Shown here: positions 18,354-37,295 of the stretch, piece after piece
How positions within the stretch are numbered: the first letter of the stretch is position 1
Layout of the letters: each line of letters starts with the position of its first letter
Source of the DNA: Neisseria arctica
GTDB lineage: Bacteria > Pseudomonadota > Gammaproteobacteria > Burkholderiales > Neisseriaceae
Direction of reading: 5' to 3'
DNA length: 64,000 nt
Assembly: GCF_022870905.1 (NCBI RefSeq)
Contig: NZ_CP091510.1
Location: 434,001-498,000 of the forward strand
Translations under genes and position numbers: made by a program
Notes under the pieces: model-generated
The model's input: the letters and a program-made list of their open reading frames with translations, nothing else
Database searches by the model: none
Told to the model about the DNA's origin: nothing

Positions 18354-19684
18354 TGAACACAACCTCACAATTTACCAGTAATTTCTGGAATATATACATT
18401 GCAGCGATTGTTGTGCTCAGCTTTGTCGGTTTGGCTTGGCTGTTGCTGTCGCAAAATAAAACCAAAGCACCGCCTAAGGGTGAAGATGTTAAAACAATGG
18501 GACACTCATGGGATGGTATTGAGGAATATAACAATCCTCTGCCCCGTTGGTGGTTTTATCTTTTCATTCTGACGATGGTTTTTGGTGCCGGTTATTTGGC
18601 ACTTTATCCTGGTTTGGGTGATTACAAGGGTTTCCTCAATTGGACTAGCCACAACCAGTATGAAAAAGAAGTTAGTCAAGCTAATGAGCAATATGGCAAG
18701 ATTTATGCCAAATTTGCCAATATGCCGATTGAGCAGGTTGCAAAAGACCCTCAAGCACAACGTATTGGTAAAAACCTGTTTGATACCTACTGTATTCAAT
18801 GTCATGGTTCTGATGCCAAAGGTTCTAAAGGTTTCCCGAACTTAACCGACCACGATTGGTTATGGGGGGGAGAACCGGATAAAATCCGTGAAACTATTGA
18901 AAAAGGCCGTGTAGGTGTGATGGCTGCATGGGGTCCGGTGTTAGGTGAGGAACGTGTGAAAGATGTGGCGAATTATGTGATGTCTTTATCCAAACCTAAA
19001 GGCCAGTATGACGAAGAACGTGCCGCCCGTGGTAATCTGTTGTTTCACGGCGGTCCAGCAAACTGCTTTACTTGCCATGGCGATAAAGGTCAGGGTATCC
19101 AAGGCTTGGGTCCGAATTTAACGGATGATGTGTGGCTGTGGGGCGGTACTCAGAAAGCAATTATCGAAACCATTACTAACGGTCGTCATAATCAAATGCC
19201 GGCATGGGCAAACTTCTTGGATAATGACAAACTACATATTATGACTGCTTATGTTTGGGGTTTGTCTAATAAAGATGGTAAAGTTCCGGCGGTTGCAGCT
19301 AAACCTGCAGAGCCTGCTGTTACCAATACTGCTCCTGCTGAGTCGAATGATACCGCACGTGTTTCTTTGGAAAATGGCGTTGCAAAATTCTACTTTGCAA
19401 CAGGTAAAAATGAAGTTGCAGCCGATGCGGTGACCGTTGCTGAAGAATTGGTAAAAGCCGGAAAAGATGGCAAAAAGCTGATTATTAGTGGTTTTGCAGA
19501 TAGTACGGGTGATGCGGCTTCTAACGAAGAGCTATCTAAGAAACGTGCTCAAGCAGTTCAGGCTTTCCTCGAAGCTCAAGGTGTGGATGCTAAAAATATT
19601 GAGTTACGCAAACCTGAAAATACCACCGGTGCACAGGGCGATGCCGCTGAAGGCCGCCGTGTTGAGGTAAAGATTGAAGGCTAA
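18353..19684 (+). CDS. ccoP: cbb3-type oxidase subunit III (CcoP) fused to an OmpA-like domain
   Basis: The 443-residue protein has two N-terminal membrane helices (about 12-33 and 66-87) and two cytochrome c domains with haem sites CIQCH (147-151) and CFTCH (238-242). An Ala/Pro-rich linker (about 310-334) leads to an OmpA-like domain (335-443). That domain carries GFADSTGDAASNEEL followed by SKKRAQAV; Asp383 and Arg398 have the 15-residue spacing of the peptidoglycan-contacting Asp and Arg of OmpA. Gonococcal CcoP instead has a third haem domain at this place. The periplasmic tail could anchor the oxidase to the cell wall (inference). Confidence 0.95.
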   Translation: MNTTSQFTSNFWNIYIAAIVVLSFVGLAWLLLSQNKTKAPPKGEDVKTMGHSWDGIEEYNNPLPRWWFYLFILTMVFGAGYLALYPGLGDYKGFLNWTSHNQYEKEVSQANEQYGKIYAKFANMPIEQVAKDPQAQRIGKNLFDTYCIQCHGSDAKGSKGFPNLTDHDWLWGGEPDKIRETIEKGRVGVMAAWGPVLGEERVKDVANYVMSLSKPKGQYDEERAARGNLLFHGGPANCFTCHGDKGQGIQGLGPNLTDDVWLWGGTQKAIIETITNGRHNQMPAWANFLDNDKLHIMTAYVWGLSNKDGKVPAVAAKPAEPAVTNTAPAESNDTARVSLENGVAKFYFATGKNEVAADAVTVAEELVKAGKDGKKLIISGFADSTGDAASNEELSKKRAQAVQAFLEAQGVDAKNIELRKPENTTGAQGDAAEGRRVEVKIEG

Positions 19685-24952: not shown

Positions 24953-25037
24953 GCCCAGGTGGCGAAATTGGTAGACGCAGGGGACTCAAAATCCCCCGCC
25001 GAAAGGTGTGTCGGTTCGAGTCCGACCCTGGGCACCA
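24953..25037 (+). tRNA. tRNA-Leu (anticodon CAA)
   Basis: The 85-base class II tRNA has acceptor stem GCCCAGG/CCTGGGC, encoded CCA, a long variable arm, and the anticodon loop CTCAAAA, reading UUG. Its 3' end is the insertion point of the mobile element that follows. Confidence 0.97.
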
Positions 25038-25125
25038 CACTGAAAAAACAGCAGCCTTTTAGGTTGCTTTTTTTACGTCTTATATTATCCAATAACGTCC
25101 ACAAGATTTAATCAGGGCAAGGCTT
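25037..25125 (+). repeat. Left 89-bp flanking repeat (attL region)
   Basis: The 89-bp block is repeated at 37207-37295 with a single difference (A at 25087, G at 37257). It begins at the last base of tRNA-Leu and includes the tRNA terminator. A diverged third copy lies in reverse beside tRNA-Leu(UAA) near 56780-56880, so the block travels with this integrase family rather than being only a target duplication. Confidence 0.9.
25050..25074 (+). terminator. tRNA-Leu(CAA) terminator
   Basis: AGCAGCC (25050-25056) pairs with GGTTGCT (25062-25068) with one G-U pair, followed by a T-run to 25074. Confidence 0.8.
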
Positions 25126-25206
25126 TCAGCCGGTTTACCCATTCCCCCGTCACCGATTTTATATCCAATAACGTCCAATGCAATCCTGTTGAATCAACCA
25201 AAAAGC

Positions 25207-25255
25207 GGGGGTATATTTTGGGGTATCTTGCAAATACCCCTGAAAAAATACCCCC
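25207..25255. repeat. Nested GGGGGTAT inverted repeats abutting the integrase start
   Basis: Copies of G(4-5)TAT lie at 25207-25214 and 25220-25226 and, inverted, at 25234-25240 and 25248-25255. They form two nested stems ending two bases before the integrase ATG. The same octamer occurs twice near the right end (37118-37137). They may be integrase or AlpA arm-type sites, or mask the integrase ribosome site. Confidence 0.7.
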
Positions 25256-25257
25256 AA

Positions 25258-26472
25258 ATGCCACTAAATGACCGTCAAATTAAAAATGCCAAGCCAACAG
25301 ATAAGCCCTATAAGCTTTCAGATGGGGCAGGCCTGCATCTGGTTATTACCCCCGCAGGCGGTAAATTATGGCGATTGAAGTACCGTATTGATAGAAAAGA
25401 AAAACTGCTTTCAATCGGTAAATACCCTGCTGTATCACTCTCAGAAGCTCGCGAAGCAGCTAATAATGCACGCGCTATGTTGGCAGCAGGGCAAGACCCA
25501 AGCGCGACCAAACAGCAAGCGAAAGCCGAAAGAGCAGCAGCACTGGCTAACACCTTTCAGGCAATCACCCATCAATGGCACGCGGCCAACCTGCATCGCT
25601 GGAAGCCCATACATGCAGAAAGGGTATTACACCACTTCCAGAAAGACGTACTACCGTTAATCGGCAATATGCCGTTGGATGAAATCAATGTGGCGGCCAT
25701 TAAGAACCTGTTAGATCGCATCGTTGTACGCGGTTCAATTCCGACTGCCGAGAAAATCAGGCAATGGATAGGGGCCGTTTTTGAATATGCGGCCATGTTG
25801 GAATTAACAGACCGTAACCCCGCCCGTGCATTAAAGCAGTATTTGCCCAAACCCAAAACCAAGCACATGCCCGCTTTGCCGGGTGAAGAGCTGACCGAAT
25901 TTTACCGCCGCTTGCTTGTGGCCGATGTGAACCAGCAGAACAGAATCGGCGTGATGTTGATTATGCTGGTGTTTTTGCGTAATACCGAATTGCGGGGCGG
26001 TATGTGGGCAGAAATCGACTTCAAGGCCAAGCTATGGCGCGTTCCGGCCGAAAGAATGAAGCGGCCAAGACCGCATGAAGTTCCATTGTCGGATTGGACA
26101 ATTGAGCTATTGCAAGAGCTACACGGTTTAACCAGCCAAACGCCCTACCTGTTTCCCAGTCACAAAAATACCAGCGGCTATATCAGTGAAAATACCTTGG
26201 GCAAAATCATCAATAACATGGGCTATAAAGGCATTGCCACACCCCACGGCTTCCGCAGCCTCGCCAGTAGCGTACTGAATGAACAAGGCTTTAATCCTGA
26301 TGCTATCGAATTGCAGCTTGCCCACGTTGAAGAAAACAAGATAAGAGCCGCCTATAACCGAGCTGACTACATGGAAGAACGCCGGGCAATGATGCAGTGG
26401 TATAGCGATTATCTGAAAGAGCGGTATAACAAAGCAGTGGATAGCCTGAAAGCTGTTGCCAGCGGGTTATAG
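25258..26472 (+). CDS. P4-type tyrosine integrase
   Basis: The 404-residue protein starts at MPLNDRQIKNAKPTDKPYKL, the usual start of this family; an upstream TTG frame (25189) would run through the nested repeats. It has a DUF4102 N-terminal arm-binding domain, a core-binding domain, and a catalytic domain with Arg246 (ELRGG), His330 and Arg333 (PHGFRS), His356 (QLAHVEENK) and Tyr366 (AAYNRADY). All catalytic residues are intact. It recombines the element into a tRNA 3' end. No clear Shine-Dalgarno is seen. Confidence 0.95.
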   Translation: MPLNDRQIKNAKPTDKPYKLSDGAGLHLVITPAGGKLWRLKYRIDRKEKLLSIGKYPAVSLSEAREAANNARAMLAAGQDPSATKQQAKAERAAALANTFQAITHQWHAANLHRWKPIHAERVLHHFQKDVLPLIGNMPLDEINVAAIKNLLDRIVVRGSIPTAEKIRQWIGAVFEYAAMLELTDRNPARALKQYLPKPKTKHMPALPGEELTEFYRRLLVADVNQQNRIGVMLIMLVFLRNTELRGGMWAEIDFKAKLWRVPAERMKRPRPHEVPLSDWTIELLQELHGLTSQTPYLFPSHKNTSGYISENTLGKIINNMGYKGIATPHGFRSLASSVLNEQGFNPDAIELQLAHVEENKIRAAYNRADYMEERRAMMQWYSDYLKERYNKAVDSLKAVASGL

Positions 26473-26482
26473 GTTGCCTGAA
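26471..26482 (+). repeat. Simonsiella-like DUS variant
   Basis: AGGTTGCCTGAA differs by one base from the AG-simDUS dialect AGGCTGCCTGAA and is unlike the host core GCCGTCTGAA. It overlaps the end of the integrase gene. Confidence 0.5.
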
Positions 26483-26586
26483 AGTCACAAACACCAGTTC
26501 CGTTGCTGTTTTTTGTTGCTGAACGTAAACCCTATTGCACACCAGTGGGCTTTAATCTATCATTTTGATACATAAGTAAGGGAAAC

Positions 26587-26885
26587 ATGGATAAGCAAGA
26601 GATAATCAGACTAATCAGGATGGCGGCCACAGACGGCAAAGTTTTTTATACCGCCCATGCAGAGCAGCGCATGTTGGAGCGCAGTATATCCCGCATTATG
26701 GTTCACCAATGCCTATTAGCTGGCATATCGGAAGCACACAGACACCTGTACACAATACCGACTATCACACCTATGAATGCCGTCTAAGCCACTATATGGC
26801 AGGTGTAAATTATGATGTGGTAGCTGCAATCAATCCCGCCGATCCTACCGCCATTGTTGTAACCGTTATTAACACAGAGGAATAG
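26587..26885 (+). pseudogene. DUF4258 protein (TA-type toxin candidate) with a frameshift
   Basis: The start MDKQEIIRLIRMAATDGKVF is preceded by AAGGG, and the N-terminal half has FYTAHAEQRMLERSIS, the conserved DUF4258 motif. The first frame stops at 26787 after unrelated residues. In a second frame the sequence resumes as YHTYECRLSHYMAG, VNYDVVAAINPADP and TAIVVTVINTEE, the beta-strand-rich end expected for the family, stopping at 26885. One indel near 26730-26760 explains both. DUF4258 folds resemble RelE/MqsR-type toxins. The HTH gene follows 5 bases later. Confidence 0.75.
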
Positions 26886-26890
26886 CTATC

Positions 26891-27334
26891 ATGTATCAAT
26901 ACAAATTATCAGGGCTTGATAATGTATGGCTGGTAAACGGCTACACCATCGAGCAGACACCATACGGCGAGGCAGTGCATATTGACCACGCAAATGAGCT
27001 AGATACAGTCATTGCGCTTGAATTGGTAAAACAACAAGATGCACTTACAGCAGCAGAGTTTCGTTTTATCCGCCAACAGCTAGGCATGAGCCAAAGCGAT
27101 GTGGGTGCATTCATGGGGGTGGATAATCAAACGGTAGCCCGCTGGGAGAAAAAAGAAACCCCGTTGCCACCCTATGCTGACAGATTGATGCGTGTATTGT
27201 TTACAGGGCATCAAGTCAAAGACACCAGTATTTATAGCTTGGTACAAACATTCAACGCTATTGATAAAGCCAAAAACAGCCGTATCGTGTTAACCAAATC
27301 AGAAACATGGCAGGGAGAATTACAGCCCTGTTAA
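26891..27334 (+). CDS. HTH antitoxin-like regulator (MqsA-C-terminal type)
   Basis: The 147-residue protein has an N-terminal half without a recognised motif and an XRE-type HTH (about residues 62-115: EFRFIRQQLGMSQSDVGAFM, VDNQTVARWEKKE). The layout of a DUF4258 gene followed directly by an HTH gene is a recurrent toxin-antitoxin-like pair in proteobacteria. It probably autoregulates the pair. With the upstream partner frameshifted, this gene may persist alone. Confidence 0.75.
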   Translation: MYQYKLSGLDNVWLVNGYTIEQTPYGEAVHIDHANELDTVIALELVKQQDALTAAEFRFIRQQLGMSQSDVGAFMGVDNQTVARWEKKETPLPPYADRLMRVLFTGHQVKDTSIYSLVQTFNAIDKAKNSRIVLTKSETWQGELQPC

Positions 27335-27345
27335 GGCTACCTGAA
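27334..27345 (+). repeat. Eikenella-type DUS (AGGCTACCTGAA)
   Basis: An exact match to the AG-eikDUS dialect lies directly after the HTH stop codon, while the chromosome uses GCCGTCTGAA. It suggests the pair came from an Eikenella-like donor. Confidence 0.7.
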
Positions 27346-27351
27346 ACCTAC

Positions 27352-27380
27352 AAACACCAGCCGCCCCGCTGGTGTTTTTT
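27352..27380 (+). terminator. terminator after the DUF4258/HTH pair
   Basis: AAACACCAGC (27352-27361) pairs with GCTGGTGTTT (27368-27377) around a 6-base loop, followed by a T-run. Confidence 0.88.
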
Positions 27381-27518
27381 ATTGCCTATTGTGGCCGATG
27401 CACCCCGTAATCGAAGCCAACACCCTAAAAGCCGCCTTAGATAAAGTCATACATCATTTGTATAATTATTTATTGAATGTATAATAATATCCAACAAAGA
27501 CCAAAACGGCTAAATATC

Positions 27519-28604
27519 ATGCAAACACAAGACGCTTTATATTACCGCCGAGCCGATTATGCAGAGAGCCTGCTAACCAGCCTAAACGGCATCACACATG
27601 CGTTTACACTCTTTGCCCCGCGCCGCATGGGTAAAACACAATTTCTATTAAAAGACATTGCCCCTACTGCCGAACGTATGGGCTTCAATGTGTTTTACTT
27701 TTCATTTATGGACGATACAGGCGCAAACGTTGCCGCCGATTTTCAAACAGCCTTATATCACTTCGCCCAAAGCATACGGACAGGCAGCGGCATCAAATCA
27801 TTTTTAGGCAGTCTGAACAAAATTGACATCATGGGCATAGGCATAGGGCGGGAAAACAAAGCCGAAACCCTACCCAAAATCAGCGACATTATTACCAGCA
27901 TAGCCCACGACAACGCTCCGACATTGCTATTGCTGGACGAAGTTCAGGAACTGGCACGGATAAAAGACACAAGCGGCCTAATACGTTCATTGCGCACAGG
28001 CTTGGACATCAACCAAAACCGCGTGAAAACCATTTTCACAGGCAGCAGCACCAATGGCCTGAAAGCCATGTTCAACAACAGCAAAGCCCCGTTTTTCCAC
28101 TTTGCCCACGCCCTGGATTTTCCCCTTTTAGGTAAAGAATTTACCGACTTTTTAGCCGATGTTTATCAGAAACGTACAGGCAAACAAGCCGATAAAGCCG
28201 CCTTTTACACCATGTTTAAGCGGTTGAACCACACGCCTATGTACATGCGGGCAGTTGTACAAGACATGATAATCACACCCGAATTAAGCCTAGAAGAAGC
28301 CGCATCAAGCCGCTTGCAGCAACTCAATGAACAACACGCCGAAAAAGGAATCTGGGCAGAGTTAAAACCGATTGAGCAGGCCATTTTGGCGGATATAGCA
28401 CGCAACCCCAACACCAGCCCGTACAGCCAAGAAAGCCGGCAACGATATGCCGCCGCGCTTGGCATAGCCAACGTGAGCAACAGCAACGTACAGGCCGCCA
28501 TTAACCGCATGGAACGGCAAGACTGGATAAACCGCAATGCAAGCAGAACATTACAAATCAACAACCCGCTATTGCAGACATGGATTTTAGAAAACACACC
28601 CTAG
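27519..28604 (+). CDS. AAA-type ATPase (island cargo)
   Basis: The protein (361 residues from MQTQDALYY) has Walker A APRRMGKTQF near residue 35, Walker B TLLLLDEVQEL near 140, a sensor-like IFTGSSTNG, and a winged-helix-like C-terminus. It resembles the archaeal-ATPase/STAND-like ATP-binding proteins seen in mobile elements. An earlier in-frame ATG (27477) is possible; neither start has a clear ribosome site. It lies in the cargo position after the integrase. Function is unknown; a defence role is conceivable but unproven. Confidence 0.7.
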   Translation: MQTQDALYYRRADYAESLLTSLNGITHAFTLFAPRRMGKTQFLLKDIAPTAERMGFNVFYFSFMDDTGANVAADFQTALYHFAQSIRTGSGIKSFLGSLNKIDIMGIGIGRENKAETLPKISDIITSIAHDNAPTLLLLDEVQELARIKDTSGLIRSLRTGLDINQNRVKTIFTGSSTNGLKAMFNNSKAPFFHFAHALDFPLLGKEFTDFLADVYQKRTGKQADKAAFYTMFKRLNHTPMYMRAVVQDMIITPELSLEEAASSRLQQLNEQHAEKGIWAELKPIEQAILADIARNPNTSPYSQESRQRYAAALGIANVSNSNVQAAINRMERQDWINRNASRTLQINNPLLQTWILENTP

Positions 28605-28692
28605 CGGTATGATCAAAGGCCGTCTGAAAGTTTACAACCACACCTAGCCCGCGATTAGCTACCAACGGCGAAAACTAAGAGATTATGAAGTT

Positions 28693-29583
28693 ATGAATAC
28701 TTTAAATGCAGGTTTTGAACTAATAAATGAAATTTTTGCGCAAACACAAGCCAATAAGCCACAGCCAAGAAAATATCAAGGTTTACCTGACTGTAAAATA
28801 ACAGGTGAAATTTACTCTTTGCCATTGGCTGCAGTATTGTGGTGTGGTGTTCCTATTGAAGAATCTGAAGCTGCAATTGCAGAGTCTGAAAATATGGGGA
28901 AAGGAATTTATAGGCACCCTTATATTCCATGTTTAGAAAAGAAAACGAGAGCTTTATATTTTGCTATTCAAGAGAATAAGTTAAGAACCTGTCGTGAACA
29001 TGGAGATGGCGGAGAAGGTAATGACCATGTGGCCTATGATCGCCGACACTTCTGGGCGTCTGATTTAAAGGAATTTATTGAGCAATACCACCCTGATGAT
29101 AAGCCAGCATTCCTTTTTAGCGATGAAGAGCGAAAACCGGAAATAGATTTACTAGAATATCAGCGTATGAATGCAGAATATATCAAGCAGCAAACGGAGA
29201 TAGTTCGTCTGAAAACAGAACTTGCTGCCGCTGAAAGTAAAGCGCGAGATAACGAAGCTGCTAAACTTACTGCAGATGATAGATTAGAAAAAGCAGTTCA
29301 AGTATATAGAGAAAACAAAGCAGAAATTGAATCGTTGAAAGAAGAAAATAAAAGGCTAAAAAATGCGATTAAGCAACCATCAGCCAAAACCACAAATAAG
29401 CAAAACGAAATCATAGCGGGGTTATCAGTTTTGTTTACTAAAACGGATGGCGCACAGCCATACGAAATGGCAGAAACCATTTTGCAAGAATGGCAGCGCA
29501 ATACAAAAGTGTTAGGCAGCGCACCAAGTAAAGAAGCAATAGCTGCTTATATCAAATTAGGTATGGAACGAATTAAACCTTAA
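28693..29583 (+). CDS. Coiled-coil mobile-element protein of unknown function
   Basis: The 296-residue protein has a conserved N-terminal half with SLPLAAVLWCGVPIEESEAA, GIYRHPYIPCLEKKTRALYFA and HVAYDRRHFWASDLKEFIE, then a coiled coil (about residues 155-240) rich in Glu, Lys and Leu, then a short alpha-helical end. I recall similar proteins as unnamed genes in betaproteobacterial mobile elements. No catalytic motif is visible. It follows a DUS at about 28618 and precedes the AlpA control region. Confidence 0.6.
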   Translation: MNTLNAGFELINEIFAQTQANKPQPRKYQGLPDCKITGEIYSLPLAAVLWCGVPIEESEAAIAESENMGKGIYRHPYIPCLEKKTRALYFAIQENKLRTCREHGDGGEGNDHVAYDRRHFWASDLKEFIEQYHPDDKPAFLFSDEERKPEIDLLEYQRMNAEYIKQQTEIVRLKTELAAAESKARDNEAAKLTADDRLEKAVQVYRENKAEIESLKEENKRLKNAIKQPSAKTTNKQNEIIAGLSVLFTKTDGAQPYEMAETILQEWQRNTKVLGSAPSKEAIAAYIKLGMERIKP

Positions 29584-29616
29584 TCCAATATTGGATTAAG
29601 TATATCCAATATTGAA
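29581..29616. promoter_or_regulatory. Palindromic operator candidate upstream of alpA
   Basis: TAATCCAATATTGGATTA (29581-29598) is a perfect 18-bp palindrome. ATCCAATATTGAA (29604-29616) repeats most of it. It is placed about 95 bases before alpA, as expected for a repressor or AlpA site. Confidence 0.55.
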
Positions 29617-29619
29617 CTA

Positions 29620-29639
29620 ACCGCCCCTATGAGGGCGGT
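29620..29639 (+). terminator. GC-rich hairpin before alpA
   Basis: ACCGCCC (29620-29626) pairs with GGGCGGT (29633-29639). The following TATATTTT is a weak T-run. It could end the preceding gene. Confidence 0.45.
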
Positions 29640-29691
29640 ATATTTTCGCCATGTTCCAACAACGCCCAAAGAGGTAAAAGGAGATTGAAAC

Positions 29692-29910
29692 ATGGCAGAT
29701 GCCATCTTACGCCAACTTGAAGTACGAAAACGCTTGGGAAACATTTCATCAAGCGCGCTTTGGTACCGGCTAGACCCTAAAAGTCATCTTTTTGACCCCG
29801 ATATGCCGAAACCTTTCAAACTATCCGCCAACGGCCGTTCAGTCGGCTGGCTGGAAAGTGAAATCGACGCTTATATCGAAAAACGCGCCGCCGTGCGTTT
29901 AGGTGCATAA
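29692..29910 (+). CDS. alpA: AlpA-family DNA-binding regulator
   Basis: The 72-residue protein has the AlpA/Vis pattern: LRQLEVRKRLGNISSSALWYR as the HTH, PKPFKLSANGRSVGWLESEIDAY as the wing, and an Arg-rich end. In P4 and related satellites such proteins activate integrase or excision, or control replication genes. A strong AAAAGGAG site precedes the ATG. It heads a tight run of small phage genes. Confidence 0.88.
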   Translation: MADAILRQLEVRKRLGNISSSALWYRLDPKSHLFDPDMPKPFKLSANGRSVGWLESEIDAYIEKRAAVRLGA

Positions 29911-29921
29911 GGGGGGAAATC

Positions 29922-30242
29922 ATGAATCAAAAAAATAACCGCCCAAACACCGGCAAAGGCATTTCAGGCGGCCAAAAAAAGGATAGCCGTAATCATACCG
30001 TTGTTTCATCAACCGATAAACAGGTTCAGCGAAAATTCATCCTGCAACGCTTGCGCCAACGCCCCCATAGCACGCTTGAGCTTCGTAACTTCGGCATTTG
30101 TGCGCCGGCTCCCCGCGTACTGGAATTACGCAGGCAGGGCTTTGATATTGCGACTACTTGGCGGCATGAAGAAGACCATGCGGGCATTACCCACCGCATA
30201 GGCGTTTACAGCCTGATAAGCGAGAAAGGGGCGCAGGTATGA
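29922..30242 (+). CDS. Small winged-helix-like phage protein
   Basis: The 106-residue protein has a polar N-terminus (about 35 residues) and a compact domain with ILQRLRQRPHSTLELRNFGI and RVLELRRQGFDIATTW. This is the layout of winged-helix proteins that help control phage genes. It overlaps the start of the next gene by 4 bases. Role not determined. Confidence 0.6.
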   Translation: MNQKNNRPNTGKGISGGQKKDSRNHTVVSSTDKQVQRKFILQRLRQRPHSTLELRNFGICAPAPRVLELRRQGFDIATTWRHEEDHAGITHRIGVYSLISEKGAQV

Positions 30243-30781
30243 ATGCATTGATCACCATCCCTTTTTACGACCAATCTTTAAATCTGATTGATTCAGACGG
30301 CAAGCCTTTTGTTGCCATGCGCCCTATTGTTCAGGGCATGGGCTTAGCTTGGCAGACGCAAGAACGGAAGTTAAAAAGCAGGTTTAGTTCAGTTATCACC
30401 ATAATGGTGACAACTGGTTTAGATGGCAAAAAATATCAAATGCTTTGCCTGCCTTTGGATAAGTTGCCTACATGGCTAATGACGCTTAATCCGCGCAAAG
30501 TTAAACCGGAAATCCGAGAAGCGATTAAACGTTACCAAGCCGAAAGCGAAGCGGTATTGTGGCAATACTGGACAGCCGGCATTGCGCGGCGTGACGAGAT
30601 ACGGCAAGCACTATCCGAGCTTATGGCAACAGAGGCGGAATCACTCAAGCGTGGCAGTGTGGCCGGTAAAGACCTGTATATCCGCAAACTGGAGAAGCAG
30701 CGTAACCAAGCCCAAATCGCCGCATTACAAGCGGAGCTGCCGTTTATTTGGAATGTGGTAGAGGAAAGGGCAACAGCATGA
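30239..30781 (+). CDS. Phage antirepressor N-terminal-domain protein (P22_AR_N type)
   Basis: The 180-residue protein opens with ITIPFYDQSLNLIDSDGKPF and AMRPIVQGMGLAWQTQERKL, the pattern of the P22 antirepressor N-terminal domain, with LPLDKLPTWLMTLNPRKVKP in the middle. A helical C-terminus (about residues 110-180) follows. In phages such proteins neutralise a repressor. In a satellite it may respond to a helper phage or induce it (inference). Its stop overlaps the next start (ATGA). Confidence 0.8.
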   Translation: MNALITIPFYDQSLNLIDSDGKPFVAMRPIVQGMGLAWQTQERKLKSRFSSVITIMVTTGLDGKKYQMLCLPLDKLPTWLMTLNPRKVKPEIREAIKRYQAESEAVLWQYWTAGIARRDEIRQALSELMATEAESLKRGSVAGKDLYIRKLEKQRNQAQIAALQAELPFIWNVVEERATA

Positions 30782-31323
30782 CACCAAAGCAAGAACAGTT
30801 TGCCCGTTTATACATCGAAACCGGCAACACAACCGAAGCATACCGCAGGGCGTATAGCACGGAAAACATGAAGCCCGAAACCATTACGAATGAAGCCTAC
30901 AAGCTACTGCAATCCCCCGATATTTCCGCGATGATAGATGACCTGAAAGCAGAGCATAAGGCGCGACATTGCGTAACCGTCGATGATGTTATTGCCGAGC
31001 TGGAGCAGGCGCGGCAGGCGGCGTTAAGCACGCCTACACCGCAATCCGGCGCGGCTGTATCAGCCACAATGGGCAAGGCTAAGATTTTGGGCTTGATTGT
31101 GGATAAAGCAGAAATCAAAGCAGAAGCGGAATTACATAGCCGCAAAATCGAACCGCCTCTTGAATCGCCTTTGAGTAAAGAAGAGTTAGGCAAAGTGATT
31201 ACGATGTCTTCCGGTGATTTAAGCACTATTACCCTTGCCGATCTTCAAGCGGTTACGGGTGATAGCAATGAAAAGCTGTATTGGGCAATTGTAACCATCA
31301 TCTCAATAAAGAAAATAACCTGA
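30778..31323 (+). CDS. Small terminase subunit (TerS, Terminase_2-like) without a large subunit
   Basis: The 181-residue protein starts at MTPKQEQFARLYIETGNTTE (30778, coupled by ATGA to the gene before), with the HTH-type TerS pattern AYRRAYS, NEAYKLLQSPDISAMI and a central coiled coil. The last about 45 residues look unlike the family and may reflect a truncated or replaced C-terminus. No large terminase, portal or capsid gene is present. Lone TerS genes are a hallmark of PICI-type satellites, which redirect helper packaging to their own DNA. Confidence 0.78.
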   Translation: MTPKQEQFARLYIETGNTTEAYRRAYSTENMKPETITNEAYKLLQSPDISAMIDDLKAEHKARHCVTVDDVIAELEQARQAALSTPTPQSGAAVSATMGKAKILGLIVDKAEIKAEAELHSRKIEPPLESPLSKEELGKVITMSSGDLSTITLADLQAVTGDSNEKLYWAIVTIISIKKIT

Positions 31324-31444
31324 TTAACCAGATTTTCAGGCGGCTTATAGGCTGCCTGGTTTGAATTTGAGGAATAAAGGCCGCTTCAGGGTAAAAATGC
31401 CACAACCATGGCAAATTGCCACACTTGCAACAGGTACACGAACA

Positions 31445-31975
31445 ATGAATTTGCTGACAAATACGCGCGTGCGCGCGAGAGAAAACCCCTTACTTGACAC
31501 TGGCGGAAAACCACGGCAATATTCAGCCATCGGTTTCAATCAACCGACCAGCCGTGGAAAGCTGGCACAAATCGGCAGACAAGCCGCCGGGAACTCAAAT
31601 TCTTTGAGCGGTGTTTTTACGTCTGCATATCCCCTTGTTTTACCTTTCGCAATGGTAGGCGGGGGCAAGGTACGGCCTAGCCGTGCCGGTTCGATTTGCC
31701 GGTTTTCCACCCCTTGCCCTTTGCTTGCCGCCCACCGCGTGGAAACGGAAAGCGGCAAAGAAGCCAAATCGAAAGGTACGATCATGCCAAAAATCCGTAA
31801 GGGCTATTCACGCCCGCTTATTTCCCGCTCTATCCGTTCGTTTGATTCGCTTGCCGAGGCAGGCCGTTTTATCGACCGTCTGACTTCCTGCAATGCCAAC
31901 GACTACCGTTTCAATATCGTGCAAAACGGCACGCGCTGGACGGTGTGCAATGTGATTTCGGGAGGTGTGCAATGA
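31445..31975 (+). CDS. Ash/Icd-like satellite ORF (or shorter 63-residue protein from 31784)
   Basis: From 31445 the frame reads MNLLTNTRVRARENPLLDTG, resembling as I recall the opening of ash/Icd-like ORFs of P4-type elements, which lie upstream of the primase near the immunity region. An internal ATG at 31784 with AAAGG upstream gives a compact 63-residue protein (MPKIRKGYSRPLISRSIRS...), which may be the real product. The upstream half may then be an RNA leader. The stop overlaps the next start. Function not determined. Confidence 0.45.
   Translation: MNLLTNTRVRARENPLLDTGGKPRQYSAIGFNQPTSRGKLAQIGRQAAGNSNSLSGVFTSAYPLVLPFAMVGGGKVRPSRAGSICRFSTPCPLLAAHRVETESGKEAKSKGTIMPKIRKGYSRPLISRSIRSFDSLAEAGRFIDRLTSCNANDYRFNIVQNGTRWTVCNVISGGVQ
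31461..31477. repeat. 17-base alternating purine-pyrimidine tract
   Basis: ATACGCGCGTGCGCGCG alternates purine and pyrimidine without a break and is GC-rich. Such tracts favour left-handed DNA. It lies at the start of the Ash-like reading frame. Confidence 0.6.
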
Positions 31976-32307
31976 ATAACCGTCTTACCGTCAATAAATT
32001 CCATTATTCCGGCTTGCCTGAATTATTGGGCAACACCCACGCCTTGGCTAATTCCGAACGGTTAAGCCCTGAAGATGCAGATTATCTGCACTCTTGCGCC
32101 GATTCGGCAATGGTGTCGCTTGGCTCATTGCTGGAAACATTCGGGCGTTTGGTTGAAGTGAACAGCCACGCTACTGAAGTTCACCGTATTGAAAACGAGA
32201 CTGTTGTTCAAGCCGTGTTGGATATGAACACCATCGTAGGCGGCCTGATGCCTGTTTTGGCCGAAATCATGCAGGACTTGAAACACGTCCAAAAAGAGGG
32301 AGTGTGA
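31972..32307 (+). CDS. Hypothetical island protein
   Basis: The 111-residue, mostly helical protein starts at MNNRLTVNKFHYSG with GGGAGG upstream. A coiled-coil-like stretch rich in Glu, Val and Leu covers about residues 45-108. No recognised domain or signal peptide. It is coupled to neighbours on both sides in the small-gene run upstream of the primase. Confidence 0.6.
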   Translation: MNNRLTVNKFHYSGLPELLGNTHALANSERLSPEDADYLHSCADSAMVSLGSLLETFGRLVEVNSHATEVHRIENETVVQAVLDMNTIVGGLMPVLAEIMQDLKHVQKEGV

Positions 32308-32308
32308 T

Positions 32309-32605
32309 ATGGCAGCCATGACTTCAACCGTAAACTTGATCGCCCCCGTCTACATGCACAAAGAAACCTTTTCACCGGCAGACGGCAATTGTGAAGAAAC
32401 CTGCTATACGGCTTCCGTATTACCGCCCTGCCATTTGCGGCCCGATACTGATTGGCTTCAGAAAGAATGGAAGCCTTTCAATGCGCCCACGCAAGAGGAA
32501 GCGGAAGCCGCCGCAATGGCTTATTGCCGCGTTCAAGGCTGGCAGTATCAGCGCGTAAGCGGCAAGCAGCCGATTTATCCGCAAATTCACCATACCGCCG
32601 ACTAA
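32309..32605 (+). CDS. Hypothetical island protein
   Basis: The 98-residue protein starts one base after the preceding stop. It has three Cys in the first half and a C-terminal segment TQEEAEAAAMAYCRVQGWQYQRV. No family recognised. It is probably cotranscribed with the preceding gene and the primase. Confidence 0.55.
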   Translation: MAAMTSTVNLIAPVYMHKETFSPADGNCEETCYTASVLPPCHLRPDTDWLQKEWKPFNAPTQEEAEAAAMAYCRVQGWQYQRVSGKQPIYPQIHHTAD

Positions 32606-32797
32606 TCCAAATTATCCCATTTAGCCTATTCGCCGCCGCACCCAATATGCAGCGGTAGGGTTTTTGCAGCCGCAAACTTTCCGAAACCTTAAGTTTTACT
32701 AACCTGCATACTTTTTAAGTATTTGATTTAAATGGAAATGGTAAAAATAGTGATTTTGGTGGTTTGGGCTGCATTACGGGCAGAAAGAGATTGAATC

Positions 32798-33925
32798 ATG
32801 AACGACACCAGCAAGCTGATTAATGCAGACAACGTGCGGGCAGAGGCGCAACACCGCTGGCCGGGTATTTTGACCGCTTTGGGTGTGCCGCCTGAAGCAT
32901 TGAGCAACAAACACCAACCATGCCCGGCTTGCGGCGGGCGCGACCGCTTCCGCTTTGATGATAAAGACGGACGGGGAACGTTTATTTGCAGCCATTACAA
33001 CAATGGCGGTGGTGATGGTTTTCACTTGGTGCAGCACCTGTTTGATTGCGATTTTACCGCTGCCCTGAAATATGTGGCCGAAGTGTTGGGTTTGACCGCT
33101 TCAGACGGCGGCAAAACGGTAATGCCTGTTTCTGCTCCGCAGAAGCGCGTAGAGCCGCCTAAAGACCGCTTGGCTATCTTGACTAACCTTTGGAATGAAT
33201 CGCAGCCATTGAGTGAATCTGACGCCGTTATCGGCTATTTGCGGGGGCGTGGCTTGGCAATGGCAGCCGATATGCCGCAAATGTTGCGCTATCACCCGGC
33301 ATTGCCCTATTGGGTGCAGGTAAACGGCCAATGGCGGCAACAGGGCAATCACCCTGCCATGCTGGCCGCAATTTGTGATTTAGACGGCCATTTGCAGGGT
33401 TTGCATCAAACCTACCTGAAGCCGGCATGGGCTAAACCGTATGGCGACAACGGAAACCATCGGCCGACATACAGCAAGCTGAATCTGCATCACCCCGAAA
33501 CGGGCGATACCCTGCCTGCCAAGAAAATGCAGAGCCGCTATACAGGCAGTCTTACAGGCCATGCGGTGCAGCTTTTCCCGATAGATGAAAAGGGGCGTTT
33601 GTGCGTGGCAGAGGGCATAGAAACCGCACTGGCTGCCCGTGAATTGTTCGGTTTGCCTGTATGGGCGTGTTTGAGTGCAGGCGGGCTGAAATCGCTGGTG
33701 TTGCCCGACGGCCTGAAAGAATTGCTGATCGTGGCAGACCATGACGAGCCCCGCCCTATCGGCTATGAAGCTGCCCACGGTTTGGCTGTTCGAGCCATCA
33801 AGCAAGGCGTAAGGGTGCAGTTATGGCAGCCGGATGAAGCAGGCGACGCACTGGATGAATTGTGCAAGCGCAGCCGCCCGGCTTGGCGGATTGTGCAGCA
33901 ACTCAACACGGAATCGGCAAATTAA
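32798..33925 (+). CDS. P4-type primase with zinc finger and Toprim domain
   Basis: The 375-residue protein has an N-terminal P4-type zinc-binding domain (CPACGGRDRFRFDDKDGRG, then CSHYNNGGGDG; residues about 40-80) and a Toprim domain (AEGIETALAARELFG; DHDE motif LLIVADHDEP; about 260-350). It would make RNA primers for element replication. In phage P4, primase and helicase are one alpha protein; here they are two adjacent genes. A DUS pair hairpin at about 33931-33960 separates them. Confidence 0.9.
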   Translation: MNDTSKLINADNVRAEAQHRWPGILTALGVPPEALSNKHQPCPACGGRDRFRFDDKDGRGTFICSHYNNGGGDGFHLVQHLFDCDFTAALKYVAEVLGLTASDGGKTVMPVSAPQKRVEPPKDRLAILTNLWNESQPLSESDAVIGYLRGRGLAMAADMPQMLRYHPALPYWVQVNGQWRQQGNHPAMLAAICDLDGHLQGLHQTYLKPAWAKPYGDNGNHRPTYSKLNLHHPETGDTLPAKKMQSRYTGSLTGHAVQLFPIDEKGRLCVAEGIETALAARELFGLPVWACLSAGGLKSLVLPDGLKELLIVADHDEPRPIGYEAAHGLAVRAIKQGVRVQLWQPDEAGDALDELCKRSRPAWRIVQQLNTESAN

Positions 33926-33978
33926 AAAAAAGCCGTCTGAAACGTAATGCTTCAGGCGGCAGGAAAGAGGATAGCTAC

Positions 33979-35784
33979 ATGAATGAAATTGTACAGCAAA
34001 CCGGTGCAAACGGTGCAGAATGTAACGATAATGCCGTTTTGGCGGCATTGGCAGAAGACACCGCCATCATTATCGATCCGGCCACGATTAAACCGTTTAC
34101 CCCTGAATCTCGCTTTGTTTGCGACAACAAGGGCGTATGGTGGGTAGAAGTGAAAAACAACAGCGAAACAGGGGAACCGCACGAAATACCCTTACGTTTG
34201 AGCGACACTATCGACCTGATCGGCAGCGGGCAAGATGTGGCAGGCAATTATTACCGTGTAATCCAATACCGCGACAAGATCACCCGGCAGAACAAAATAG
34301 CCGTTATCCCCACTGCCGACATAGGCAGCAACCAAGGCTGGCAGCGTTTGCAGTCGTGGGGTATCACCATCTATTCAGGCCGCCGTAAGCGCGAACTGTT
34401 GGCAGACTATCTGCAAACAGAGGGCAGTAAGGCCGCCTATACCATCACCGAAAAGGCGGGCTGGCACGATAAAGCCTACATTCTTCCAAGCGGCGAAGTA
34501 ATTCATACCGGTGAGGAAGCCGCCCGGATCATCTACAACGGCGACAAGAGCCAAGCAGCGGCGTATCTGCAATCAGGCAGCCTTGAACAATGGCAGGCTG
34601 AAATTGCGCGATATGCGGCAGGTAACAGCCGCCTATGCCTAGCCCTTGGCATTGCCTTTGCCGCCCCTCTCTTATCGCTTCTGAACGTGGAATCAGGCGG
34701 TTTTCACCTATACGGCGACAGTTCGGACGGGAAAACCACTGCCGCCCGCGTCGCATTGAGCGTATGGGGCAAGCCGTCTGACATTCTGATGACGTGGCAA
34801 GGCACAGGGCTGGCGTTTTCCAATACCGCCGCTGCCCGTAATGACGGCCTGCTGGTGTTGGATGAAATCGGACAGGCAACACCGACAGTTGTCAGCAGTA
34901 CCGTTTACGGCATCATGAACGGTGTTAATAAGGCGCAGGGTGCAAAAGACGGCGGCAACCGCCATCAAAGCCGCTGGCGCGTGCTGGTGCTTTCTACCGG
35001 TGAAAAAACACCCGATACCATTATGCGCGGTACCGCCGACTGGCATGCAGGCCAATCGGCAAGGCTGCCCTCTATTCCCGCCGCCGCCCAATACGGTATC
35101 TATGACACTTTGCACGGCTTTAGCAGCGGTGCCGAATTATCGGAGCATTTGCAGGCTGCCGCTACCAACCAACATGGCAACGCAGGCCGTGCATTTATCC
35201 GCCTGCTGGACGATACCGCCAAAGACAGAGCGGAAGAACGTATTAAAGCCTTTATGGACGGCCTGCCCGAATTAAGCGGACAAGCCCGCAGGGTTGCCAA
35301 GCGGTTTGCGCTGATTGCCGCCGCCCTGGAATTGGCCGCCCCGGTAACAGGACTTGCCGCTGGTGTCGGTATGGCAGGTATCAAACAGTGCTTTGACGCA
35401 TGGCTGGCACGCACTGGAAGCGGCAAACAAGAGGACAAGCAAATCATCCAACAGGCAGAGGCATTTATGCAGATGCATGGTGATTCATTGCGTTTTATCG
35501 GTTGGAATGATGCAGAACCATACGTTAATCGCAATCATGCCGGCTATCGTAAATCTGCCACACAGGAAAACTCGCCTGATGAATTTTGGATCATCCCTGC
35601 CGTTTTTGAATCGGAAATCTGCCAAAGCTTTGATACGGCCAAAGTGTGTGCAGTTTTACACGGTATCGAGTGGCTGAAAAAACCTGATGGCACACGCTGG
35701 AGACACCAGCGCAAAGGTAAAGGGCGGTTTTATGTGTTGGTAGGCTTAGAACCGCCAAGTGATGAAGTGCCGGAATCGGAATAA
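33979..35784 (+). CDS. DUF927-domain helicase-like ATPase
   Basis: The 601-residue protein starts at MNEIVQQTGANGAEC with AGGAAAGAGG upstream; an open frame to 33862 overlaps the primase and is rejected. It has a DUF927 domain (about residues 80-330) with Walker A GDSSDGKTT and Walker B LLVLDEIGQA, and a C-terminal winged-helix-like part. DUF927 proteins act as replication helicases of mobile elements, partnering with a primase. The origin-like repeats follow directly. Confidence 0.9.
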   Translation: MNEIVQQTGANGAECNDNAVLAALAEDTAIIIDPATIKPFTPESRFVCDNKGVWWVEVKNNSETGEPHEIPLRLSDTIDLIGSGQDVAGNYYRVIQYRDKITRQNKIAVIPTADIGSNQGWQRLQSWGITIYSGRRKRELLADYLQTEGSKAAYTITEKAGWHDKAYILPSGEVIHTGEEAARIIYNGDKSQAAAYLQSGSLEQWQAEIARYAAGNSRLCLALGIAFAAPLLSLLNVESGGFHLYGDSSDGKTTAARVALSVWGKPSDILMTWQGTGLAFSNTAAARNDGLLVLDEIGQATPTVVSSTVYGIMNGVNKAQGAKDGGNRHQSRWRVLVLSTGEKTPDTIMRGTADWHAGQSARLPSIPAAAQYGIYDTLHGFSSGAELSEHLQAAATNQHGNAGRAFIRLLDDTAKDRAEERIKAFMDGLPELSGQARRVAKRFALIAAALELAAPVTGLAAGVGMAGIKQCFDAWLARTGSGKQEDKQIIQQAEAFMQMHGDSLRFIGWNDAEPYVNRNHAGYRKSATQENSPDEFWIIPAVFESEICQSFDTAKVCAVLHGIEWLKKPDGTRWRHQRKGKGRFYVLVGLEPPSDEVPESE

Positions 35785-35800
35785 TCGACCGCAACTATAC

Positions 35801-35832
35801 AAAGGCCGTCTGAAAATTCAGGCGGCTTTTTA
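35801..35832 (+). terminator. DUS-pair terminator after the helicase gene
   Basis: AGGCCGTCTGAA faces TTCAGGCGGCTTTTT. It carries the host-type DUS and ends the replication operon just before the heptamer cluster. Confidence 0.8.
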
Positions 35833-35896
35833 TTGTGGGTACGACCAACAGCAAAGCAGGGAAAAACGCTATACGCGAGAACAATTAAAAAGTAGT

Positions 35897-36147
35897 GGTT
35901 ACCGTGGTTACTTACAATTAAAAATGCCCTGTAAGCCTTTATTTATAAGCCTTTTGGCGGTAACCACTTACAAAAATTTACATGGTTACCTGCCGGTTAC
36001 CGTGGTTACCCTTTTAAAATCAGTGATTTATATTGTAAAGAAAATTTGGTAACCAGCGGTAACCAGTAAGAAAAATCTTAGTGGTTACCCGCAAAGCCTT
36101 TATCCATAAGGCTTTCAGCGTTTGGTAACCGGGTAACCACGGTAACC
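35897..36147. other. Candidate replication origin: GGTTACC iteron cluster
   Basis: Eleven exact GGTTACC heptamers lie in about 250 bases. Five are on the plus strand (35897, 35984, 35995, 36004, 36083) and six are inverted as GGTAACC (35959, 36048, 36058, 36124, 36132, 36141), with a near-copy GGTTACT at 35906. Spacings within groups are 8-11 bases, close to one helical turn. AT-rich stretches and two AAGCCTTTAT copies lie between. The position behind primase and helicase matches the P4 layout, where alpha binds iterons. No protein-coding frame is convincing here. Confidence 0.8.
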
Positions 36148-36323
36148 GGTGATTTTTCTGTATATATATACTTTCAGTCAGGCTAGTTTGCCTAATGATG
36201 CTTTGTTGATTCACTGGTTGGAAAACTTCCATGCTTTTATACCTATTAAATTTCCCAATAGGAAAACAAAGGGTAAAATATCAATTATTTTTTTTCGTAA
36301 TAAGAAATACTTGGAGGTTGGGA

Positions 36324-36647
36324 ATGGCTACTGTAATCGATACATTGTTTATCGAACTTGGTATTGATGCCAGCAAGTTTTCAAGTGAGGCGCAAAAAGC
36401 GACCGAAAAACTTGAAAAGATGGAAAAGGCTTTTGATAAGTCGGAAGCTGCTGCAAAGAAAAACGCAGAGCAGGCCAAGAAGAACGAAGTACAGTTCAAG
36501 CAGCTTGAAAAAAACATCAGAGATTTAGTCAAAGCATTTACTTCGTTTACTTCATTGGCTTTAGGTTCCGCTATGCAAGATACAGGCAAAGACATGATGG
36601 ACAGTATTAGTGAAGCGGTAACTCAACTTAACCCGGGGATGATGTAA
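36324..36647 (+). CDS. Truncated tape-measure-like protein
   Basis: The 107-residue protein starts at MATVIDTLFIELGIDASKFS with GGAGG at 36313-36317. Its opening and following coiled coil (TEKLEKMEKAFDKSEAAAKK) match the N-terminus of phage tail tape-measure proteins, which are usually many hundreds of residues. It stops after a short hydrophobic stretch (SFTSLALGSAM). It may be debris or a small tail-assembly interference protein. Confidence 0.6.
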   Translation: MATVIDTLFIELGIDASKFSSEAQKATEKLEKMEKAFDKSEAAAKKNAEQAKKNEVQFKQLEKNIRDLVKAFTSFTSLALGSAMQDTGKDMMDSISEAVTQLNPGMM

Positions 36648-36664
36648 TAGCAGGGAAATGAGCC

Positions 36665-36904
36665 ATGAAAGCAGATACCATGAGTGCAACTGAAATCTAT
36701 CACTTACGCCGCTCTATCCGGCTAAGTGGAGCAAAGCGGTTTCATACGACCACACAACGGGAATTTGCCGATATTCTCGGCGTATCGTTGGACGCTGTGA
36801 AAGCATGGGAACAAGGCCGCCGACGCCCTAGAGCCGCTGCCGTAACACTCTTGAATCTTATCCGGCGTAATCCAGCTATTGTTGAGACAATGAAAGTAGA
36901 TTGA
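36665..36904 (+). CDS. Small HTH regulator (NadS/HigA-like)
   Basis: The 79-residue protein has a clear HTH (TTQREFADILGVSLDAVKAWE) followed by RRRPRAAAVTLLNLIRRNP, the form seen in HigA/NadS-type antitoxins. Start at 36665 or 36680. No toxin gene adjoins it. It lies 17 bases after the tape-measure fragment. It could be an orphan antitoxin or an element repressor. Confidence 0.65.
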   Translation: MKADTMSATEIYHLRRSIRLSGAKRFHTTTQREFADILGVSLDAVKAWEQGRRRPRAAAVTLLNLIRRNPAIVETMKVD

Positions 36905-36928
36905 TCCGTATCGTAACCATTAAATAGC

Positions 36929-36964
36929 CCGACACAGCAAAAGAGCTTCACTCGCCGGTGTCGG
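36929..36964 (+). terminator. weak hairpin after the HTH gene
   Basis: CCGACAC (36929-36935) pairs with GTGTCGG (36958-36964) across a 22-base loop, followed by T-rich sequence. Confidence 0.35.
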
Positions 36965-37117
36965 TATTATTTTAATTTAACGCACTTTGGATAAATTGCA
37001 CTTACGGGGGCAGTGTCATCTTTTCTGTACACAATAAAAAAGCTGCCAAATAAGTTCATGCAGATGTATCATTGTGCGATGCAATCAAGGTATAAAAACG
37101 TGTGACTTTGACAAATT

Positions 37118-37137
37118 GGGGGTATGTTTGGGGGTAT
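37118..37137 (+). repeat. GGGGGTAT direct repeats near the right end
   Basis: GGGGGTAT at 37118-37125 and again at 37130-37137, 12 bases apart, repeat the octamer found beside the integrase start at the left end. Confidence 0.65.
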
Positions 37138-37206
37138 TTTGTGATTGTGTTAAAATAAATAACAATATAATCAATATTTTAATTGCATAGTTTGAGTCTG
37201 ACCTTG

Positions 37207-37295
37207 ACACTGAAAAAACAGCAGCCTTTTAGGTTGCTTTTTTTACGTCTTATATTGTCCAATAACGTCCACAAGATTTAATCAGGGCAAGGCTT
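37207..37295 (+). repeat. Right 89-bp flanking repeat (attR region) with decayed tRNA 3' end before it
   Basis: It is identical to 25037-25125 except one base. Immediately left (37189-37206) lies TTTGAGTCTGACCTTG, a mutated form of the tRNA-Leu 3' end (TTCGAGTCCGACCCTG) that has also lost a few bases before the repeat. This is what an old integration into the tRNA would leave. Confidence 0.85.

Follow-up and report, generated by a model that had tools for sequence, protein, structure and literature searches.

Origins with two iteron sets have been published, together with a functional test, for the phage-inducible chromosomal islands (PICIs), and the main text of that work describes for the EcCICFT073 pri-rep-ori module an integrase at one end, AlpA, a primase/initiator, a single direction of transcription and sometimes terS (PMC6092414). 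In P4, one set of six copies of the iteron TGTTCACC forms ori, and ten sites lie at the distant crr. How does an array of GGTWACC heptamers at positions 35897-36147 of a 64,000-nt stretch of the Neisseria arctica chromosome (NZ_CP091510.1, positions 434,001 to 498,000; hereafter the window) compare with these systems? The array follows genes for a primase and a DUF927 helicase, and we are confident that it is the origin of a PICI-type satellite inserted behind a Neisseria tRNA-Leu, presumably bound by the satellite's own DUF927 helicase via a C-terminal wing. The layout of the island is close to that given for Gram-negative PICIs in the main text of PMC6092414, where the words 'Neisseria' and 'DUF927' do not occur; its primase and DUF927 genes are separate, whereas those of the PICIs described there are 'sometimes fused', and the iteron sequence also differs. 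Judged from sequence, the origin thus appears to belong to a known kind, and the new part would be a residue-to-base code in the initiator. Among the matches listed from the open-licence literature, searched by titles and starts of abstracts, none described such origins in Neisseria or a code of this kind for the initiators; this scope does not extend to the subscription papers by Ubeda and colleagues on the specificity of SaPI (staphylococcal pathogenicity island) Rep, which PMC7581432 cites.

The heptamer array and its proposed initiator

The initial annotation had counted 11 exact heptamers, five direct and six inverted, and one near-copy in about 250 bp, and our recount agrees. As the heptamer is nearly identical to its own reverse complement, strand can be assigned only from the central base and the flanking sequence. 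The longer repeat unit is (g)TGGTTACC.

35897, 35984, 35995, 36004 and 36083, + strand: exact copies of GGTTACC
35959, 36048, 36058, 36124, 36132 and 36141, - strand: exact copies of GGTTACC
35906: near-copy GGTTACT, the second site of half-array A
35897..36010: half-array A, six sites in the order ++-+++, start-to-start gaps 9, 53, 25, 11, 9
36011..36047: AT-rich centre (84% AT), where the DNA is presumed to melt
36048..36147: half-array B, six sites in the order --+---, gaps 10, 25, 41, 8, 9

The window as a whole contains 19 heptamers where 5.2 are expected, and none of 100 shuffles reached at least 19. Their presumed rarity elsewhere was borne out: in the chromosome, a single contig of 2,378,219 bp, GGTWACC occurs 417 times, a density of about 0.044 per 251 bp, compared to 339 for a reversed-pattern control, and all five tight pairs of the genome (0-6 bp apart) lie within the array, with none for the control. 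The only other spot in the window with an 8-mer at least five times per 300 bp is a triplicated tRNA-Gly block at 57.2-57.5 kb, and in the island no 7- or 8-mer outside the heptamer motif exceeds four copies per 300 bp. A similarity search of the array DNA against phage records gave no match. The description of the surroundings as AT-rich applies only mildly to the whole array (61% against 52% for the island) but fully to the 37-bp centre.

The parallel to P4 that had been drawn proved apt. When reverse-complemented, the six annotated P4 ori type-1 repeats read ++-+++ with gaps of 10, 43, 22, 11 and 10, which is the strand order and nearly the spacing of half-array A (53 against 43 at the widest gap); half A of a relative, L007, has gaps of 9, 44, 22, 11 and 9. 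As used here, the P4-type feature (six iterons arranged 3-1-2, or as the reverse complement of this, at gaps near 10, 11, 22, 43 and 10) is taken from one P4 record and follows no published definition. The systems differ in that P4 has its single set of six at ori and the window two sets of six joined, and in that P4 alpha is one protein of 777 residues, annotated as DNA primase, whereas the primase and DUF927 proteins of the window are encoded separately. 1KA8, the P4 alpha origin-binding domain, is absent among the fold-search matches listed, which excludes nothing.

32798..33925, + strand: primase with zinc ribbon, DUF7146 and Toprim_3
33979..35784, + strand: DUF927 initiator helicase (PF06048, 4e-59), whose model matches SCCmec Cch and SaPIbov1 Rep
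35293..35781, + strand: C-terminal winged-helix domain, residues 478-640, proposed to bind the iterons
35695..35742, + strand: beta-wing, residues 612-627, with R612, Q616 and K618 covarying with iteron bases 3, 5 and 8-9

Residues are numbered from GTG 33862, the start of the mechanical open reading frame; ATG 33979 is the likelier start, and numbers based on it are lower by 39. The modelled DUF927 protein matches the fold of the self-loading initiator helicases SaPIbov1 Rep (8tch) and SCCmec Cch (5dgk) over its whole length, the C-terminal DNA-binding domain included, at 15-19% sequence identity in the structural alignment. The primases are of different types, archaeo-eukaryotic in SaPI and zinc-ribbon/Toprim in this island. 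In the mechanism that we envisage, the beta-wing of the C-terminal winged-helix domain attaches the DUF927 helicase, whose gene immediately precedes the array, to the 12 iterons. With six iterons per half, in opposed orientation around the AT-rich centre, the array could seat two opposed hexamers, possibly with one iteron per subunit; these would melt the 37-bp centre and then move outwards, and the adjacent zinc-ribbon/Toprim primase would lay the primers for replication.

Do such arrays recur beside related initiators? Counting the window's own genome, 36 of 83 family genomes have a DUF927 relative; the survey took in 48 gene copies from 35 of them and left out a short fragment in G014. An 8-mer occurs at least five times per 300 bp near 43 of the 48, with flank lengths that vary by locus. 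One of these clusters, a GCCTGAA repeat 3 kb off in L052, was rejected as an array, and six-site arrays became visible in L032, L041 and L050 with one mismatch allowed, which brings the final count to 45 of 48. Conservation of GGTTACC itself, whose absence from related islands was to speak against an origin according to the initial annotation, had to be rejected: the heptamer is missing behind the DUF927 gene in most relatives, but in most of them a different iteron array is found there, so that this absence does not refute an origin. At the level of the order, 55 of 399 genomes have a DUF927 match, including six of the window's genus already counted. In a scan of 25 loci (one, L070, again from the window's genus) that reached at most 1.5 kb past the gene, L068, L069, L077, L080, L084 and L086 had clear arrays close behind it, and the remainder had weaker clusters, clusters elsewhere or none. 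On viral contigs, the best 80 of 232 matches gave 51 distinct tails, and 39 of these carry arrays. The E. coli-type elements L104, L106, L128, L176 and L120 have 12 sites with other spacing.

Wing residues and iteron bases

Written as 9-mers, the iterons of the relatives are close variants of one frame (the natural unit is GCGGTTATG in L008 and GCGGGTACA in L015), and their differences appear to follow the wing. We consider it likely that Arg612 specifies G3, that Lys616 specifies G5 and Gln616 T5 (A on the other strand), and that residue 618 sets bases 8-9 (Lys CC, Arg CA, Tyr/Phe TG). Wing and origin would then form a specificity cassette and diverge jointly, and sister islands, even in one chromosome, could gain different origin specificities with the same helicase. 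Chemically, these pairings (Arg or Lys with G, Gln with A) are conventional.

Of the 48 gene copies, 32 entered the counts. Those excluded are near-duplicates (L022, L033, L037, L042, L050), whose wings and iterons fit like their twins'; L020, where the reading frame ends before the wing; L039, where the gene end is replaced; L026, L044 and L052, which have no array; L043, whose first-assigned array was wrong; and L046-L049 and L051, which have another wing. The DUF927 wings of E. coli and other Burkholderiales are not safely alignable. Among 476 residue-base column pairs, the top four scores (612-p3, 618-p8, 618-p9 and 616-p5) all fall in the wing. G3 is found in 24 of 24 islands with R612 and in none of the eight without it; G5 in 9/9 with K616 and T5 in 19/22 with Q616; T8 in 11/11 with Y or F618 and C8 in 21/21 with K or R618. 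At base 9, C accompanies K618 in 10 of 12 islands, A accompanies R618 in 7 of 9, and G accompanies Y/F618 in 10 of 11. Re-including L039 changes the proportions to 24/25 (R612-G3), 9/10 (K616-G5) and 12/12 (Y/F618-T8). Thinned to single representatives at 70% C-terminal identity (n=22), the islands give Fisher p values of 1e-5 (612-p3), 4e-5 (618-p8) and 2e-4 (616-p5); at 60% (n=15) these become 7e-4 for 612-p3, 0.07 for 618-p8 and 0.03 for 616-p5, with too few islands to tell. In branch-disjoint pairs, on a 30-tip FastTree phylogeny built from only the helicase part (support values unchecked), residue and base changed jointly in 5/5 (612-p3), 5/5 (618-p8), 8/8 (618-p9) and 7/10 (616-p5) cases; in the remaining three at 616-p5 the base changed alone.

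Natural experiments occur among the islands. The chromosome of G053 harbors two islands, L021 and L036, with helicase parts 99.7% identical in protein; their DNA is 98-100% identical to about 260 bp before the stop, wing and array then differ, and identity resumes about 1.4 kb past the stop, as if wing and origin had been replaced together. L028 and L038 have one difference in the wing segment compared (Q616 to L) and one in the iteron (T5 to A). For both, TATG had been forecast from their F-type wings before their arrays were located, and both forecasts were correct: the arrays, found upstream of the operon, read GTTGATATG in L038 and GTTGTTATG in L028, the latter a 9-mer assembled from 8-mer counts. 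T5 in L028 also agrees with a rule recorded before its array was found, and in L016, where the R-type wing had led to a forecast of C, the array CTGGTTACA fits.

In the model of the window's protein, R612 stands before the first wing strand, Q616 in the strand and K618 in the turn. A structural neighbor is TcpK of plasmid pCW3 (5vfx, in complex with oriT), which binds nine-base tandem repeats by placing its beta-wing, in lieu of the usual helix, in the major groove (PMC6137059). Unlike the DUF927 protein, TcpK is no helicase but a transfer protein, small and dimeric, and homology between the two is not claimed; by analogy, wing-based iteron reading by the DUF927 protein is plausible.

PICI-type satellites with P4-like origin geometry are thereby placed in Neisseria and its family, and the choice of a satellite initiator for its own origin becomes a testable prediction at three residues. 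If the code is true, the sequence of an initiator could reveal which origin it is specific for, and origins not yet seen could be located in DUF927 elements, since the last bases of the L028 and L038 arrays were forecast before their discovery.

Exceptions and alternative readings

A number of observations weigh against the origin assignment or the code. The full two-half strand pattern is present in only 18 of 41 tabulated relatives, even with missing sites allowed. The array is not always behind the replication gene, lying more than 5 kb before the DUF927 stop and 1.1-1.3 kb from the integrase in L028 and L038. In L037 and L178, 6-8 kb separate half A, which directly follows the integrase, from half B, which follows DUF927, and the halves are thus separable units; in L033 and L053, a search reaching 11.2 and 7.1 kb upstream found no half A to accompany half B, so that two sets of six are not universal. 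In L026, L044 and L052 an array was not found in the flanks searched. Small 'plasmid' records are weak as proof of autonomy: pSYM9 and NZ_CP033801 have a Rop gene in addition to such an array, pTAO100 has repM, and they are therefore no proof that DUF927 alone replicates a plasmid. As to the code, shared GG and TA letters guided the placement of the 9-base frame by eye, the islands on which the rule was counted are those from which it was derived, and tests following a recorded prediction are few: L028 and L038 (TG), L016 (C) and L028 (T5). Exceptions occur at p5 in L018 (C), L029 (A), L031 (G, a mixed array) and L038 (L616, A), and at p9 in L035 (T), with L027, L029, L034 and L036 ambiguous; in L099, on a viral contig, R-type wing and CA agree only with a by-eye alignment to L009 and otherwise miss. 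The clearest exception is L039, which is off at p3 and p5, combining the wing of L025 with another iteron. The two islands, both from G011, show no difference until the final ~100 bases of the gene; they have the wing in common, and their arrays differ; to judge from these sequences, L039 is probably a recombinant cut between wing and array, with the array shortened to nine sites, so that its initiator and origin may mismatch.

The split origins of L037 and L178 recall P4 ori and crr. Another plasmid record, NZ_CP148430.1 (L095; E. coli, circular, 12,152 bp), has the layout of a satellite, with integrase, antirepressor, TOPRIM-DUF927 and a phage gene fragment; six copies of TTGGTTCA lie behind its DUF927 gene, as 3+3, and no further replication gene is annotated.

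Could the array serve another purpose? A chance cluster or a general host feature, such as a cluster of restriction sites or an uptake-type repeat, would agree with the excess of the heptamer over its reversed pattern in the genome, but the genome count already contradicts it through the confinement of tight pairs to this one place, and relatives retain an array with different sequences, which fits no host motif; we regard its probability as negligible. The array might instead be an operator through which an island regulator (the AlpA-like protein, HTH_39 or the helix-turn-helix proteins at 26891 and 36665) controls transcription. Several small DNA-binding proteins are indeed encoded in the island, and three relatives have a second, different dense array upstream, so arrays with other roles may exist; however, the iteron bases track the DUF927 wing, the base having changed in all branch-disjoint pairs with a class change at 612, 616 or 618, and two opposed sets around an AT-rich centre are the plan of a PICI origin, making an operator very unlikely. 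We also consider it very unlikely that the array is an element acting in cis, as P4 crr does, on copy control or incompatibility, with replication truly starting elsewhere. The recurrence of the same P4 iteron at ori and crr and the two separate half-arrays in L037 and L178 would be in line with such an element, but the window island has a single cluster in which both halves and the AT-rich centre are together, and the geometry of half-array A is nearer to P4 ori than to crr. A satellite replication origin tied to the neighboring replication protein, as initially proposed, is supported as the best reading.

The host island and further arrays

The island spans 25037-37295 (12,259 bp), beside tRNA-Leu(caa) and flanked by 89-bp direct repeats (99% identical). 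Its other features are:

24953..25037, + strand: tRNA-Leu (caa), integration site (ARAGORN)
25037..25125, + strand: attL, 89-bp direct repeat, 99% identical to attR
25189..26472, + strand: tyrosine integrase (Arm-DNA-bind_3, Phage_int_M, Phage_integrase)
26891 and 36665: helix-turn-helix (HTH) proteins
27477-28604: AAA ATPase cargo gene, no match in PADLOC and PHROG
29692..29910, + strand: AlpA-like regulator (PF05930, 23.1 bits against a cut-off of 21)
30748..31323, + strand: terminase small subunit (TerS) homologue (PF03592, phrog_51)
36324..36647, + strand: N-terminal fragment of a tail tape-measure protein at the right island end (phrog_1538, 1.9e-6)
37207..37295, + strand: attR, second 89-bp copy

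All named genes are on the + strand, in the order integrase, HTH, AAA ATPase, AlpA, HTH_39, antirepressor-like, TerS, primase, DUF927, array and tape-measure fragment. Several hallmarks of a Gram-negative PICI are found here: a flanking direct repeat with an integrase at one end, AlpA, genes in the same direction, a terS homologue, and replication genes followed by two iteron sets around an AT-rich region. PADLOC, run on eight proteins, returned matches for one HTH protein only, and these were weak; the primase had no match in the PDB by sequence at E ≤10.

The idea that co-resident islands avoid each other's iteron is not supported, the six-base core being common to 2 of 14 co-resident pairs and to 122 of 976 pairs from different genomes; the whole 9-mer is common to no co-resident pair among the 14. 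This count was made with TTCGTTAC as the L043 motif, which was rejected as the iteron of L043, since it matches the end of an upstream array in L048. The own ATCACACC clusters of L043 lie upstream and downstream, with origin-like gaps.

Second, different dense arrays are found about 2.7-3.9 kb before the DUF927 stop in L048, L046 and L043, which also have arrays with origin-like gaps or position. The upstream array of L048, TTCGTTACC, comprises 14 sites, nearly all on one strand, with many gaps of 20 and 44, and that of L043 ends alike. Mixed arrays occur in L065 (the array of L031; reverse complement of 18696-18982), with the variants GTGGTGACA and GTGGGTACA, and behind the DUF927 gene of L099, with the variants TGGTTACA and TGGGTACA.
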